From the NCBI GenBank assembly GCA_015067375.1, contig SVMQ01000035.1, positions 1 through 13,372 on the forward strand: a stretch of DNA of 13,372 nt. The letters run 5' to 3'. Under the pieces are notes generated by a model. It did no database searches, was not told where the DNA came from, and saw only the letters and a list, made by a program, of their open reading frames with translations. The DNA is from Oscillospiraceae bacterium (GTDB lineage Bacteria; Bacillota; Clostridia; Oscillospirales; Ruminococcaceae). The position numbers were made by a program, and so were the translations under genes. Positions 4,006 to 13,372 of the stretch are shown one piece after another (position 1 is the stretch's first letter; each line of letters begins with the position of its first letter).

Positions 4006-4494
4006 TTTCCGCCTCCTCATATATTTCGTTAACGGCTGTTATCCAGGCCTTCAGTTGTCGTATCGTCATAGAAAAGTAAAAGCTGGCATCGGTGTTTGTA
4101 TACCTTGCCAGCTTTACACTCTCCTTCCTGAACCATTTCAGCGGGTCTGATTTCAGAAACCCAGCTTTAAGAAAAAATACTTCATCTTAAGACGAATAGT
4201 ATTCGCCTCTACCAGCGGCAGATTCTCGATTACCGAGTAATGCACCTTTGCCGCCCTCGCCGCGAGTCTGAACATATATGTACTTGAGCTGTCAGGCGCA
4301 TACGCTATGAAGTGCTCACGTGACATTTCAAGCTCTACAAGCTCCATATCCTTACCTGTAAGGCTATCAAAATCAAAGGTAAGCTCCTCGTAGGTCGTAC
4401 CCTCCCATGTAAAGGGCTTTTTCAGCTTGTGTATATATACTCCGCCGTCCTCGATCTCCTCATCAACGATCTTTTCCTCCAGCTTCTCTGCCAT
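3989..4494 (-). CDS. Tail assembly chaperone, -1 frameshift long form (E+E'-type fusion)
   Basis: Reading shifts by -1 at T_TTT_TTC (4177..4171) after codon 108 of the short form. The new frame stays open for 60 residues to TGA at 3991..3989, giving 168 residues. The extension contains FLKSDPLKWFRKESVKLARY and TIRQLKAWITAVNEIYEEAENE, which is helical and charged and ends within the tape-measure gene. It has no good start of its own, fills an otherwise empty gap of about 150 nt, and matches the known arrangement in P2 (E/E'), Mu and lambda (G/GT), where a few percent of ribosomes shift to make the long chaperone that recruits tape measure. Coordinates span both frames. The open frame and signals are seen; actual shifting is inferred. 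Confidence 0.82.
4143..4177 (-). promoter_or_regulatory. Programmed -1 ribosomal frameshift site: slippery heptamer and hairpin
   Basis: The heptamer T TTT TTC lies in the zero frame of the chaperone gene as X XXY YYZ, the standard -1 simultaneous-slip form. An 8-nt spacer leads to a hairpin at 4162..4143: outer GGG/CCC, a TT bulge, and inner TCTG/CAGA closed by loop AAAT. Spacer length and position fit known stimulators. The zero-frame stop (TGA, 4155..4153) lies inside the hairpin, nine codons after the heptamer's first codon. Confidence 0.8.
4153..4494 (-). CDS. Tail assembly chaperone, short form (P2 gpE / Mu gp41-like)
   Basis: The 113-residue zero-frame product. After an acidic N-terminus (EEKIVDEEIEDGG) comes YIHKLKKPFTWEGTTYEELTFDFDSLTGKDMELVE, the pattern L..P..W.G..Y.EL..DFD.LTG.D typical of the P2 E/Mu gp41 chaperones, followed by the helical ending that includes FRLAARAAKVHYSVIENLP. 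These proteins coat the tape measure while the tube polymerises and are not part of the finished virion. It lies between tube and tape measure, the invariant place for this gene. AGGAGG lies 7-8 nt before the ATG. Near its end it carries a slippery heptamer that yields a longer form. Confidence 0.85.
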   Translation of the reverse strand: MAEKLEEKIVDEEIEDGGVYIHKLKKPFTWEGTTYEELTFDFDSLTGKDMELVELEMSREHFIAYAPDSSSTYMFRLAARAAKVHYSVIENLPLVEANTIRLKMKYFFLKLGF

Positions 4495-8092: not shown

Positions 8093-8424
8093 TCGTCATA
8101 CCTCTCAAGCTTCAATACGATCTCGCCCATCTCAAGATCGACCGAGATGATGCGATACGTATAATCGCCTATTTCGATGCGATTATTAACCGACGGCAGA
8201 AAACCGAGGCTGTCAAAAGGTATATAGACCGTCTTAACAATGGAATATATGCCGTCGTTATAGTCGTCGTTGCTGCGGCTGATCTCCTCAGGCGAATAGT
8301 CACTTACCACAACAGGGGCAGTATAATATTTGCCATTATAGCAGATCTCCGTATCCTCCGAGAATTCGTCGTTATTGTGGAACGTCTGCAGGATATCAGC
8401 AGCGGCAGCCTTCTTAAAAGTCAT
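8089..8424 (-). CDS. Putative head-tail attachment protein (FII-like position)
   Basis: A 111-residue protein starting MTFKKAAAADILQTFHNNDEF. It is rich in beta-prone segments (GKYYTAPVVVSDY; YSIVKTVYIPFDSLGFLP; RIEIGDYTYRIISVDLEMGEIVLKLERYDE), as expected of small connector proteins such as lambda FII, which form a ring at the head-tail joint. I make the call mainly from position after the major capsid gene and from length; I do not see a diagnostic motif. The start has no ribosome binding site of its own and uses TGATG overlap with the capsid gene. Its own stop overlaps the next start by 4 nt. Confidence 0.6.
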   Translation of the reverse strand: MTFKKAAAADILQTFHNNDEFSEDTEICYNGKYYTAPVVVSDYSPEEISRSNDDYNDGIYSIVKTVYIPFDSLGFLPSVNNRIEIGDYTYRIISVDLEMGEIVLKLERYDE

Positions 8425-10189: not shown

Positions 10190-10978
10190 AGCCTTATCTT
10201 CCTCCTTGTTAGTAGTTGAATTGATTATATTGCCGCTGCCCTCGTTCTCGTTCAATGAGGAACAGTTAAGCACATTCCTAGGAATTTTGCTACTATATTC
10301 TCCGAATTCCACCGAGTTTACAAATACCCTGCCGTTGCAGTTCTCGACCTTCATATCGTCAAGACCGAAAAGCTTATCGCAAAAACCGCTTTCAACAGCT
10401 GTTTTTCCGTCATACCACGTTTCAGCATCCATGATTGCGGAAATATCCTCGATAGACTTGTTTGTTTTCTTGGCATAAGCCTCAGCAATAGCGGATTTGA
10501 CTACGAAAAGCTCACCCTGCAGCTTTTCAAGGTCGTCGCTGTTATATCCACCCCAAAGGCAGACCGACGGATTATGTACCATAAAGCACGCCGCCGCAGG
10601 GATCTCAATGCTCTCGGCTGCCATTGCAATGACCGTAGCAGCCGAAGCCGCCCAACCATCTATTATCGCCCTCACCGCTACACCGTTTTTACGGAGCGTG
10701 ATAAGGCGGTTGTAGATAGCGAATGCCGCGAACACGTCACCGCCGCCGCTGTTTATACGCACATCCAGTGCCGAAATGTCACCGAGAGCCGACAGATCCT
10801 CATCAAACTGCTTAGGAGTAACCTCATCGCCCCACCAGCTCGACTGCGAGATATCACCGTAAAGCACAAGCTGCGCAGGCTCGTCAGTATCAGCACTGTT
10901 AGTAAACTTCCAGAACGGCACTGAGTTCTGTTTCTGCGGTCTTGCCGTCGCATTTATAATCTTAATCGGCTGTTTCAT
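9842..10978 (-). CDS. ClpP-like head maturation protease with C-terminal scaffold-like domain
   Basis: A 378-residue fusion. Residues about 35-210 are a ClpP/S49-type serine protease that processes capsid components during head maturation. NSGGGDVFAA (76-85) is the oxyanion-hole glycine segment, Ser112 in DGWAASAAT is the likely nucleophile, and His135 in MVHNP is the likely base. The third residue lies in MDAETWYDG (183-191) and is not certain: the position I align with the ClpP Asp is Glu186, with Asp184 next to it. Residues about 240-262 are a linker rich in Asn, Ser and Glu. Residues 264-378 are charged and helix-prone (ELRAKYPDVVKAIEDAATKAERERIKNIEE), as in scaffold domains. The layout parallels lambda C/Nu3. 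The gene begins inside the portal gene; AGGAGG lies 12 nt upstream of the ATG, a long spacing. Confidence 0.88.
   Translation of the reverse strand: MKQPIKIINATARPQKQNSVPFWKFTNSADTDEPAQLVLYGDISQSSWWGDEVTPKQFDEDLSALGDISALDVRINSGGGDVFAAFAIYNRLITLRKNGVAVRAIIDGWAASAATVIAMAAESIEIPAAACFMVHNPSVCLWGGYNSDDLEKLQGELFVVKSAIAEAYAKKTNKSIEDISAIMDAETWYDGKTAVESGFCDKLFGLDDMKVENCNGRVFVNSVEFGEYSSKIPRNVLNCSSLNENEGSGNIINSTTNKEEDKAMNENELRAKYPDVVKAIEDAATKAERERIKNIEENSYDGYEDLVQDAKYDNPISGDALAVKILAAMKKEGAEVIKNRQADALAAGVQDVGSVHVPAGGDSDEKQFEDDLDAVFNA
10201..10207 (-). promoter_or_regulatory. Internal ribosome binding site for nested scaffold
   Basis: AAGGAGG inside the protease gene, 11 nt upstream of the in-frame ATG at 10189. 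It is a full-strength match to the anti-Shine-Dalgarno sequence used by most genes here, and lies at the join between the linker and the scaffold-like domain. Confidence 0.5.
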
Positions 10979-12500
10979 TCTGTGATCTTGCCTCCTGTAA
11001 TAACTGATTTTCCGTTACCAGCTGACGGACATTCGCATAGAAGTTGCTTCCTGTCAACTCAGTCGCTTCGCTGTCATGTGTCGAGAAGCCGTGCTCTGCT
11101 CGCTGGATAGCCGCATTTACTTCCTTAAGCGGGTCAAGCTGTCCCTGTGTCGGACCGTTCCACTTTGCGCCACAATAAGCCTTTCGTACAAGCGGATCAG
11201 TAAAGAATCCGGGCGCCTTGATCCTGCCCTTGGCTACAGCTTCCCACATCCACTCCTCGAACACTGGCTGACAGAAGTCATTTACAAGCCATCCACGATA
11301 CATCGTGAAAAGCTTCCATGCTTCCAGCAAGGCACCACGCGAAGCGGAATAATTACTCGAAAAGTGCTTTGTCAGCACCTCGTATGGCACTTCCAGTGCC
11401 GCGCCGATCTGACAGGATACCGCCTCGACGAATCCGCCGAAGTTTGCATTTGGTCTGCCTGGTGTTACAGGATTTGCCTTTTCGCCCTCCTGCAGATCTA
11501 TAATAGAGCCATTTCCGAGATTGATATTGCCGCTTACAGGACTAGCGAGACCAGCAAGCGGATCGTCTGTTTCCTCTCCGAAAGGTGCGTCATCGCTGAC
11601 GCCCTGCTTTTCGATGAATACCGTAAACAGCCCCGATACCACTGCCGCCATAAGCTCAGCGTCGGTATATCTGCCAAGCTGCTTAAGGGATTCGATGACA
11701 GGAGCCACGAAAGGCAATCCACGTATCTGTCCGATACGCTCACGATTTGCAAGGAACAATACATTCCTACGCCCTGTTTTCTCGCCGTACACCTCGACCC
11801 TGCGCCACTCCTGAACACCACGATGTTTGCAATTGATTGCAAAAGGGTGATATTTTGAGATATGGAACGCTACGAGTTCACCGAAGTAGTCGGTTTCGGC
11901 ACCGTCATGAATATTTTCATCAAAGGAAAGCATCTCAGGGGTCGATATCCTGTCCGCTTCGATAAGCTGTATTGTCAGCTCGTACACAGAGCCTGCTCGC
12001 TGCTTGAAAGGCAGCAGCGCTACCACATCACCTGATAAAAGCCAATTCAGGAACGCCATCTGCTGAAGCTCGTAGAAATTATCCATCCTCGAAGCATCAC
12101 AGTCGGGACTGTCCGCAAACAGTGAAAACTCGCGCTCGATCGTCGCCTCAATATCTCTGGCATCTTCTTTCGATATACCGAGATATTCGTAGTCGATCTG
12201 ACTTTTCAACCGCAGACCGCTGCCGACAACGTTTGTTCTCATTGTCTTTACAGCACCCGTTGCAAGCGGTGCGCCTGCGTACAGATCACGCGACCGCTGC
12301 CGAAGCACATCAAGATTATCGTGGATATCCTCGTCCGCTGAACCGCCTTCGAAATTCCAACCGCGCATCGAATTGCGCGATAGACTAGCACCATAATTGC
12401 CATAGCCGCTATCAAGTATCTGCAGCCTTTTACGCGCCGCAACTCGTTCCAGCGCCTTTTTCGGAGATATGGCCGCTATAGTTTTATCAAGAAAATTCAT
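10962..12500 (-). CDS. Phage portal protein, lambda gpB family
   Basis: The portal is a dodecameric ring at one capsid vertex through which the terminase pumps DNA, and it later joins the head to the tail. The 512-residue product has the usual length and landmarks of the lambda-type portal family: an N-terminal segment with NSMRGW, the RSRDLYAGAPLATGAVKTMRTNVVGSGL region, LLSGDVVALLPF, a QLIEADRISTP stretch, NRERIGQIRGLPFVAPVIESL, and a C-terminal SRGALLEAWKLFTMYRGWLVNDFCQPVFEEW block. I start it at ATG 12500 because GGAGG at 12510..12506 is 5 nt away; the TTG three bases upstream is not needed. Its 3' end overlaps the protease gene by 17 nt, suggesting coupled translation. It is the first gene after the structured RNA gap. 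Confidence 0.93.
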   Translation of the reverse strand: MNFLDKTIAAISPKKALERVAARKRLQILDSGYGNYGASLSRNSMRGWNFEGGSADEDIHDNLDVLRQRSRDLYAGAPLATGAVKTMRTNVVGSGLRLKSQIDYEYLGISKEDARDIEATIEREFSLFADSPDCDASRMDNFYELQQMAFLNWLLSGDVVALLPFKQRAGSVYELTIQLIEADRISTPEMLSFDENIHDGAETDYFGELVAFHISKYHPFAINCKHRGVQEWRRVEVYGEKTGRRNVLFLANRERIGQIRGLPFVAPVIESLKQLGRYTDAELMAAVVSGLFTVFIEKQGVSDDAPFGEETDDPLAGLASPVSGNINLGNGSIIDLQEGEKANPVTPGRPNANFGGFVEAVSCQIGAALEVPYEVLTKHFSSNYSASRGALLEAWKLFTMYRGWLVNDFCQPVFEEWMWEAVAKGRIKAPGFFTDPLVRKAYCGAKWNGPTQGQLDPLKEVNAAIQRAEHGFSTHDSEATELTGSNFYANVRQLVTENQLLQEARSQNETAD

Positions 12501-12525
12501 CAATACCTCCGATAGATTTATTGGA

Positions 12526-12579
12526 GATAAGCCGCAGGGTGTGCCCTGCGCCGTCGGAGCGCCGCCCCGAACACTTATC
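12526..12579 (-). ncRNA. Compact three-way-junction RNA fold upstream of portal gene
   Basis: On the minus strand GATAAG (12579..12574) pairs with CTTATC (12531..12526) and encloses two hairpins. The first is TCGGGGC/GCTCCGA with a 3-nt loop (12570..12554, 7 bp, one G-U). The second is CGCAGGG/CCCTGCG with loop CACA (12550..12533, 7 bp). Junction linkers are 3, 3 and 1 nt. It ends 16 nt before the portal ribosome binding site (GGAGG, 12510..12506), so it could shape portal translation or protect a processed 5' end. There is no U-run after it, so it is not an intrinsic terminator. The pairing is seen in the sequence; the role is inference. Confidence 0.45.
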
Positions 12580-12667
12580 GTTTTGATCTGTGCCCTTCAC
12601 AGACGATACCCTGTACCGCCTGCAAAGTGAAAGGACAAAACATGAACAGTACCACCGCACAGAAAGG

Positions 12668-12733
12668 GCGGGCGCGCGGAATTGAACCACGTCTAGGGGC
12701 AATTGCCTCCCCAGGAATAACCTTATCACCCGC
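12668..12733 (-). ncRNA. tRNA-like cloverleaf, non-canonical
   Basis: The 5' strand GCGGGTG (12733..12727) pairs over all 7 positions (one G-U) with CGCCCGC (12674..12668). Immediately inside the 3' strand is a canonical-looking T-arm: stem CGTGG/CCGCG (5 bp, one G-U) around loop TTCAATT (12675..12691). The remaining arms are reduced: a D-like arm AGG/CCT with a 5-nt loop (12713..12723), and an anticodon-like arm GGGG/CCCC with a 9-nt loop (12696..12712) that can be read as 7 nt closed by an A-G mismatch, centring CAA. It lacks the usual D-loop GG and the U before the anticodon, and encodes no CCA. It is 66 nt, shorter than an ordinary tRNA. It may be a decayed tRNA, a tRNA mimic or an RNase P/Z processing signal. 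A functional translation tRNA seems unlikely. Confidence 0.5.
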
Positions 12734-12772
12734 ATATATGCCCCTGCGCCCGATATCACAGGGGCGAAATCA

Positions 12773-13009
12773 TCAAAAATCGCGCGGCACTACCCGATAT
12801 ATACGGTTCCTGCCACCGCCGTTTTCTTTTCGTTTAAGCTTCGTGACCCAGCCGTTCCAGTATTCGATCTGGCTGCGTATCTCACCGAGATTTGCTCTGG
12901 TCAGCGATCGCGTTCCTATCGTGTAGCTCTGTCCAGTTGCACAAGCCTCCTCAGCTCCAAGCCACATTTCAAGATGCTGTACAGCCTTTTCATAAGTGAT
13001 TCCTGCCAT
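12773..13009 (-). CDS. DUF6148-like small head protein (gpW position)
   Basis: A 78-residue protein starting MAGITYEKAVQHLEMWLGAEE and containing a GQSYTIGTRSLTRANLGEIRSQIEYW core, ending in a basic tail. This matches my memory of DUF6148 proteins of Bacillota phages, which sit between terminase and portal where lambda has gpW, a head-completion protein that joins the head to the tail connector. That role is inferred from position. I chose ATG at 13009: AAGGAG at 13020..13015 lies 5 nt upstream. A GTG at 13015 would put the start inside the ribosome binding site, so I rejected it. The start is 9 nt after the terminase stop. The gene is followed by a long structured gap rather than directly by the portal gene, which is unusual in such a tightly packed cluster. 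Confidence 0.75.
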   Translation of the reverse strand: MAGITYEKAVQHLEMWLGAEEACATGQSYTIGTRSLTRANLGEIRSQIEYWNGWVTKLKRKENGGGRNRIYRVVPRDF

Positions 13010-13018
13010 AGCCACTCC

Positions 13019-13372
13019 TTAAGTGATGCCTCCCGAGCGTGTCCTTCTGCCGCGCTTTGCCGCTGTCGTTGGCTTTGACTGCGGCGGTTTAAGCTCAGGG
13101 TTATGTATCTCAAGCGCTGCACCCGCATAAACGCGGATATCAAGCGGCTCGTTTCTCTTGTGTTTCTTGTCTTTAAGCCTCCAAGCCGTTGTTGGTACGC
13201 CTTTTTTAAAAGTCATTATCATCTGCTCGGCTGTAAGACCCTTGAAATACTCCTCGCTATAACCTGTACCCTTATCGATTGGGAAGTGACAGTAGTTAGG
13301 CCCTTCATCGGTAACGCGTAATCGTTGATATAACAGCGCCTTGCCAGTGTCAACACCGATCTTGAATAGCGG
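13019..13372 (-). CDS. Large terminase subunit (GpA family), C-terminal fragment
   Basis: This is the C-terminal end of the ATP-driven motor and nuclease that packages phage DNA through the portal. The frame is open to the window edge and gives 117 residues before TAA. The visible part has the GpA-type C-terminal pattern: FKIGVDTGKALLYQRLRV, then GPNYCHFP, then EEYFKGLTAEQ, a WRLKDKKHKRNEPLD segment, and a short basic tail ending RRTRSGGIT. The family is normally about 600 residues, so the ATPase domain and most of the nuclease lie outside the window. The gene heads the head module. Its stop codon overlaps the ribosome binding site of the next gene, so translation of the two is probably coupled. 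The ATG at 13222 is an internal methionine, not the start, because homologous-looking sequence continues upstream of it. The family call is from recognition of the motif pattern; the truncation is certain. Confidence 0.88.
   Translation of the reverse strand, partial: PLFKIGVDTGKALLYQRLRVTDEGPNYCHFPIDKGTGYSEEYFKGLTAEQMIMTFKKGVPTTAWRLKDKKHKRNEPLDIRVYAGAALEIHNPELKPPQSKPTTAAKRGRRTRSGGIT

Follow-up and report, generated by a model that had tools for sequence, protein, structure and literature searches.

The junction between a gpW/DUF6148 gene and the portal gene carries in many phages a clearly conserved two-hairpin RNA with strong covariation, and in the window (the whole 13,372-nucleotide stretch of Oscillospiraceae bacterium DNA analyzed here) an untranslated gap of 269 bases that, judging from thermodynamic predictions, probably folds into an RNA as well. 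The new structured RNA that a preliminary description of this DNA had placed at the junction is thus upheld by covariation in many other phages, while in the window, where the evidence is one of folding, the claim does not reach that standing. For both RNAs, cis-control of portal translation appears the most likely role, a view that we hold with no more than moderate confidence.

Results

Gene neighborhood and content of the gap

The window holds, on the minus strand, a phage late operon with the order GpA terminase, DUF6148/gpW-like gene, gap, lambda-type portal, Clp protease, and major capsid protein E (Table 1). The gap between the DUF6148 and portal genes is present as first described, flanked by matches to PF19645 and PF05136, and measures 269 bases to TTG 12503, where the ORF list places the portal start, or 272 to ATG 12500, taken as the start here. 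The accompanying statement that the other gaps are of 0-60 nt does not hold throughout: a spacing of 132 nt at 4021-4152 is taken up by a shifted frame that stays open, and one of 219 nt at 271-489 is overlapped by a further reading frame. At 4021-4260 on the minus strand, the 132-nt gap separates a 113-aa tail gene from the tape measure gene, and the shifted frame, open from within the upstream gene onward, continues past a T-TTT-TTC-like run, as would be expected for a programmed frameshift in tail assembly chaperones of the G/GT type.

Table 1. Features of the late operon and of the gap, with the evidence for each
Feature	Position	Strand	Evidence
Terminase large subunit GpA, C-terminal part	13019-13372	-	PF20454, E 6.3e-21; truncated by window end
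DUF6148 (gpW-like) gene	12773-13015	-	PF19645, E 3.7e-19
Gap, probably a structured intercistronic region	12504-12772	-	fold z -3.12; no protein, no Rfam match
Hairpin 1, 9 bp (12765-12757 with 12748-12740)	12740-12765	-	MFE and centroid
tRNA-like cloverleaf	12668-12733	-	predicted fold; acceptor + T-arm in 0/30,000 shuffled gaps
7-bp closing helix (12663-12657/12593-12587)	12587-12663	-	MFE; closing helix absent from centroid
15-bp hairpin (12627-12613/12609-12595) inside closing helix	12595-12627	-	MFE and centroid
7-bp hairpin UCGGGGC/GCUCCGA	12554-12570	-	predicted fold
7-bp hairpin CGCAGGG/CCCUGCG	12533-12550	-	predicted fold
Shine-Dalgarno (SD) hairpin, GGAGGUA 12510-12504 with UAUCUCC 12529-12523	12504-12529	-	pair probabilities 0.84-0.97
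Portal gene (Phage_portal_2, lambda-type)	10962-12500	-	PF05136, E 7.8e-94; ATG at 12500

The longest minus-strand open frame of the gap (12487-12759, 90 aa) matched no Pfam family, and its comparison with 5.8 billion proteins returned a sole match, an entry of 82 aa that is 100% identical and given with no source, and which is therefore the window's own protein or a copy of it. A protein in the gap was rejected on these grounds, as the preliminary description had anticipated in finding none credible; its failure to recognize a described RNA family is likewise matched by the Rfam 15 search of the gap, with nothing at the gathering score. No promoter- or terminator-like match was found in 12300-13100. 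On the plus strand, an ORF of 99 aa (12627-12926, listed from GTG) runs antisense through DUF6148 and is opened by AAAGTGAAAGGACAAAACATG, which resembles a ribosome site (SD-like AAAGGA); stretches like AAAGTGAAAGGACAAAACATG are found elsewhere in the host family too.

Predicted fold of the gap and of the portal SD

On the minus strand, the gap reaches a minimum free energy (MFE) of -111.4 kcal/mol as against -96.0 +/- 4.9 for shuffled sequences (z -3.12; 0/200 as low), whereas the plus strand gives z -1.48, with 15/200 shuffles as low, so that the argument for minus-strand transcription drawn earlier from the G-U pairs holds. Of the helices previously listed, the MFE structure and, mostly, the centroid recover the 9-bp hairpin and the cloverleaf-like fold, together with further hairpins; the three-way junction is confined to an alternative structure lying about 3 kcal/mol higher than the MFE, in which the SD is not freed. 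The whole fold and the acceptor/T-arm combination lie beyond chance in the window, SD sequestration only marginally so.

The portal SD has an unpaired probability of about 0.01 in 50-, 100-, and 160-nt contexts and, in the 50-nt context, is the least accessible of the 13 starts scored (next, 0.21; one more start had no SD), the SDs of the genes starting at 8424 and 6958 being equally buried in wider contexts. Burial as strong arises in 206, 112, and 80 of 2000 shuffles with 30, 60, and 100 nt upstream, respectively, and since 4-10% of shuffles bury the SD equally, its sequestration in the window is suggestive only. A bistable switch, in which GAUAAG from 12579 would capture the anti-SD segment UAUCUCC, was rejected: this alternative costs about 3 kcal/mol and, when it is forced, the SD stays paired. 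A second UAUCUCC, at 12463-12469 on the minus strand within the beginning of the portal coding sequence, could pair with the SD instead.

The tRNA-like unit

The predicted cloverleaf combines a 7-bp acceptor (12733-12727/12674-12668) and a 5-bp T arm (12691-12687/12679-12675) closed by the loop UUCAAUU with a short D-like arm (3 bp) and an anticodon-like arm, and its four-arm fold is valued at -28.2 kcal/mol. The acceptor with a canonical T-arm appeared in 0/30,000 dinucleotide shuffles of the gap, a figure to be taken as a guide rather than as a clean p-value because the definition was written after the sequence had been seen, and in 0/600 strand searches of shuffled windows. The tRNA hallmarks present are the 7-bp acceptor, the 5-bp T stem, and the UUCRANY loop, while U33, a 7-nt anticodon loop, a GG-bearing D loop, and CCA are absent from 12668-12733 and its flank. 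A working tRNA was thus rejected for lack of U33 and CCA and for its short D arm. ARAGORN reported no tRNA in the gap at normal settings; at half threshold it gave three poor folds, of which two overlap and none corresponds to the cloverleaf. RF00005 (tRNA) is not among the Rfam matches listed in the gap at E<=10, which leave aside one lower-scoring match of the tRNA/tmRNA clan; the best listed match of clan CL00001 is cyano_tmRNA (9.6 bits vs a gathering score of 70). Furthermore, an origin from a host tRNA is unsupported by the comparison with 28 tRNA readings of 17 own-genome loci (the genome being 74% complete), as 114/500 shuffles score as well and the likeness is confined to the T-loop region.

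Relatives of the window element

Near-identical copies of the element are found in two IMG/VR contigs, and the searches below recovered it only in such near-identical records, with no diverged homologue. BLAST of the gap in phages gave a single 21-nt match only. When BLAST was extended to 396 family genomes, matches at E<=1 occurred in 275 and, except for the window itself, were all short; 29 of these loci (L087-L115) were inspected, and L098, a promising homologue candidate, was rejected as it is actually a transporter leader. The exact T-arm pattern has three matches in IMG/VR: two belong to the same phage, and the third, L132, falls by chance within a coding region. A covariance model of the window element (R3), run with strict filters, matched 14/297 family genomes at E<=1, the window's own among them, and the best other matches (21.9, 21.0, and 19.8 bits; per-genome E 0.007-0.016) are about at chance level for 297 genomes. 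When R3 was run on 58 sources, namely the window, L002, and 56 further loci, nothing fell below E 2 except the window and its copy L002.

In a same-genus phage (L313), whose portal is 63% identical, 14 nt separate the DUF6148 stop from the portal start; absence of the gap from close relatives, which the preliminary description had named as counting against its proposal, is what we find for the window in this one relative. Lachnospiraceae-type relatives, at 50-62% portal identity, have unrelated sequence there, mostly of 152-179 nt, with TTGCCCG/TTTCCCG repeats, a promoter-like box recognized by eye, and a short terminator-like hairpin. Larger inserts of 432 to 1948 nt occupy the junction in L004, L005, L008, L024, L028, and L138, of the same type (521-1948 nt if L008 is set aside). 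Clusters of the TTGCCCG/TTTCCCG repeats were observed at the DUF6148-portal gap of L003, L012, L022, L029, L077, L137, and L140. As far as seen, the window element is lineage-specific.

A two-hairpin RNA at the same junction in other phages

Order-level genomes with a portal identity of 43-48% have gaps of about 60-110 nt that are alike in look. The same layout is found between the annotated gpW-like and portal genes of the Faecalibacterium phages Taranis, Pioen, and Lagaffe and of phage nd4, the named hosts being Faecalibacterium; phages Toutatis and Shimadzu, with gaps of 12-13 nt, are devoid of it. Two IMG/VR scans with gpW-type alignments provided 69 and 80 loci, that is 115 distinct gaps. 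A folding rule, which demands that two hairpins be adjacent and that the loop of the second hold a YTYYKTT-type motif, was passed by 79 of 123 distinct gaps (reference loci added) and failed by 44, of which L217, L225, and L311 nevertheless match the covariance model; L125 was added to the set by hand.

The RNA is about 75 nt long, on the same strand as the late genes. P1 reads GGUA-n-GCCC-tetraloop-GGGC-UUUACC, and P2, mostly of 12-17 bp, bears an apical loop mostly of 10-18 nt with UUU..YUCCUUU and is followed by a short T-rich linker and the portal SD. In 69/76 members the loop heptamer reads CUCCUUU, a figure partly built in since the folding rule demands such a motif, and L291, one of the other seven, was mis-picked and also has CUCCUUU. 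L170, L179, and L206, wrongly trimmed by the automatic procedure, were excluded from the loop-SD and heptamer counts, and all three match the model.

Covariation was measured first on a plain MAFFT alignment of 37 members. Paired cells amount to 90.4% vs 72.7% after shuffling, 21/23 pairs are changed on both sides vs 14.0, and the covariation score is 0.514 vs 0.200 for shuffled and 0.069-0.160 for slid alignments; for each of these measures, 0/500 shuffles reach the observed value. The alignment of 79 sequences fitted to the model, which leans towards the structure, gives 93.6% paired and a score of 0.699. Covariance models were built from the 37 members (R1) and from the 79 sequences (R2). 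When R1 was applied to 41 further loci, it recovered all but L310 at E<=0.04 (40/41). This is not a blind test, given that L121-L123 nearly duplicate training rows and that the folding rule had selected most of the 41. R1 matched none of 8 Lachnospiraceae-type loci. A blind test on 295 order-level genomes with strict filters yielded seven matches, one per genome, all 7/7 located 0-110 nt before an independently found portal match. Portal matches were present in 16/295 genomes, and the nine without a model match include the window's own and L119, which reaches 30.7 bits when searched as a locus. In addition, an exact 19-base loop pattern retrieved six IMG/VR contigs, three of them new, all 6/6 with a portal reading frame just downstream. 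In nine loci, eight of them carrying the two-hairpin RNA, no Rfam match reached its gathering score; at lower thresholds (E<=1 in 8 loci, E<=0.1 in 15 loci), FinP and rsmX alone appear, the latter in 1/8 loci, on the opposite strand and with 25.8 bits vs a gathering score of 56.

The P2 loop can form at least four contiguous Watson-Crick pairs with the SD in 71/75 members (mean 5.1), the duplex having a median of -9.4 kcal/mol. No loop-SD covariation was detected in the family (161/200 shuffled pairings are as good) and the nested model leaves the SD about half open (median 0.57), so that the SD mechanism is one that we infer in this family too. UUUC is often retained in the loop opposite SDs that lack the matching GAAA, a pattern that may reflect a mimic of the 16S tail or a protein site. 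The P2 loop CUCCUUUC of L164-L312 and of phage loci corresponds to the anti-SD tail of 16S rRNA in Firmicutes, and it often persists where CUCC is the only part matched by the local SD. A T-rich tail follows the two close hairpins (4.2/8 T vs 1.7 further on, 76 members).

Some variants deserve mention. In one branch of the family (L120, L160, L233-L241), P1 (GAAAGAAGCCCC-GAAA-GGGGCUUUUUUCAU) resembles the terminator-like hairpin of the Lachnospiraceae-type (L003-type) gaps, in which the model has no match, and the two hairpins perhaps have one common origin. By eye, L249 has an intact P1 after the gpW stop, and its P2 seems reduced to a short remnant ahead of the SD, possibly by a natural deletion.

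Discussion

Our tentative first choice for the window is that the gap forms, on the late mRNA, a folded leader between the two cistrons that is not itself translated and that limits or times portal translation. Only the phage lineage of the window would have gained or retained this leader; pairing of the SD with the upstream anti-SD strand would lower initiation on the portal gene, and the structure might be opened by ribosomes finishing DUF6148, by a phage or host protein, or by tRNA-type factors acting on the tRNA-like domain. As a result, the portal, of which each head requires one ring, could be made in the right proportion. By analogy, support comes from the unrelated two-hairpin RNA, which at the same junction would present a loop anti-SD (mostly CUCCUUU) to the portal SD. 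Of the three functions put forward in the preliminary description, this cis-regulation of portal translation fits best, as a function that we infer.

Two rivals of this reading are serious. The gap might be a functionally neutral insertion at a tolerant junction, folding well from its G+C-richness and having no selected RNA role; this is unlikely in our opinion, even though the element is confined to near-identical records, the same-genus L313 has no such gap, and the junction accepts large inserts in Lachnospiraceae-type phages, since neutrality sits poorly with the difference in z-score between the transcribed strand and the other one and with an acceptor/T-arm combination that shuffling did not reproduce. 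Distinctly less likely is a stable or processing RNA, by which tRNA enzymes (RNase P/Z, CCA enzyme) would cut the mRNA between DUF6148 and portal or release a small RNA: the acceptor stacked on the T arm, the UUCRANY loop, and the stability of the four-arm fold speak for it, and the missing CCA and U33, the 3-bp D arm, the lack of a listed Rfam tRNA match, and the absence of visible derivation from the own-genome tRNAs speak against it.

The remaining readings carry less weight. A transcription-level element, either a put- or EAR-like processive antiterminator or an attenuator in the late operon, would suit a mid-operon site before a long distal operon, and the two-hairpin family has its two close hairpins followed by a T-rich tail; the lack of a terminator-like site around the gap and of any Rfam match at gathering score makes it improbable. 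That the window element is a diverged member of the two-hairpin family was rejected as largely refuted and is highly improbable: the junction is the same and the window has GUUUUGUCCUUUCAC, like the family loop, but R1 run on the whole window with filters off found nothing in the gap at E<=10, the best R2 match there is an 8-nt loop piece of 2.3 bits, and GUUUUGUCCUUUCAC-like stretches are found elsewhere in the host family, some resembling reverse complements of ribosome sites. UCCUUUC, at 12628-12635 in the window, is unpaired and outside any hairpin loop in the MFE structure. Finally, the packaging RNA acting with terminase and portal, which had been suggested from the gene neighbors, gained no support, having no Rfam match and being absent from L313, which has DUF6148 and a similar portal; we regard it as the most improbable of all. 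On the best reading, RNAs that govern portal translation in cis recur at this junction, and the window has an unrelated, lineage-specific one.

How the portal is kept at one ring per head, when the capsid protein is present in hundreds of copies, is an old question. A covarying RNA before portal genes, not detected at Rfam 15 gathering scores in the loci tested, is a testable candidate for the control of portal dosage, and if the orphan of the window truly does the same job by another fold, the junction would be a recurrent regulatory site and not a lone oddity. One may go further, in a proposal that we rate as unlikely, and regard the junction as a dedicated slot where unrelated RNAs, that of the window having a tRNA-like domain, evolved independently to throttle the portal, as an RNA governor in place of protein autoregulation. 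The literature search recognized, among the matches listed, no paper on an RNA of the gpW-portal junction. Viral and phage structured RNAs have reportedly been screened on a larger scale, and the two-hairpin motif may be listed there, which bears on priority. The main texts of PMC8632094, PMC11109978, PMC6429828, PMC2864571, and PMC8040213 contain neither "portal" nor "terminase"; PMC8040213 describes 28 candidates near integrase, sortase, or phage domains.

Comparison with known systems

With tRNAs and tRNA-like RNAs (RF00005, clan CL00001), the window unit shares the acceptor and T-arm geometry, the T-loop consensus, and four arms, and it differs from tRNA by the absence of CCA and U33 and by its truncated D arm. 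The EAR element (the epsC antiterminator) and the HK022 put RNA are cis RNAs located inside or early in a long operon, and put consists of two adjacent hairpins; neither gives an Rfam match at gathering score in the window or in eight two-hairpin loci, put being compared via Rfam only. FinP (RF00107) is antisense to traJ of the F plasmid and targets a ribosome-binding site. The two-hairpin family shares with FinP the two-hairpin layout and the U tail, and FinP scores 35.0 and 31.3 bits in 2/15 two-hairpin loci, below the gathering score of 45; unlike FinP, the family would act in cis and not as an antisense RNA, in another host and with another loop. As for the window, its element has in common with the two-hairpin RNA the intercistronic position, the strand of the late genes, and an anti-SD segment near the portal SD, whereas the P1 and P2 layout itself is undetectable in the gap. 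The best reading of this likeness is that the window carries an unrelated, lineage-specific RNA, which shares with the two-hairpin family a junction and a strand rather than kinship.
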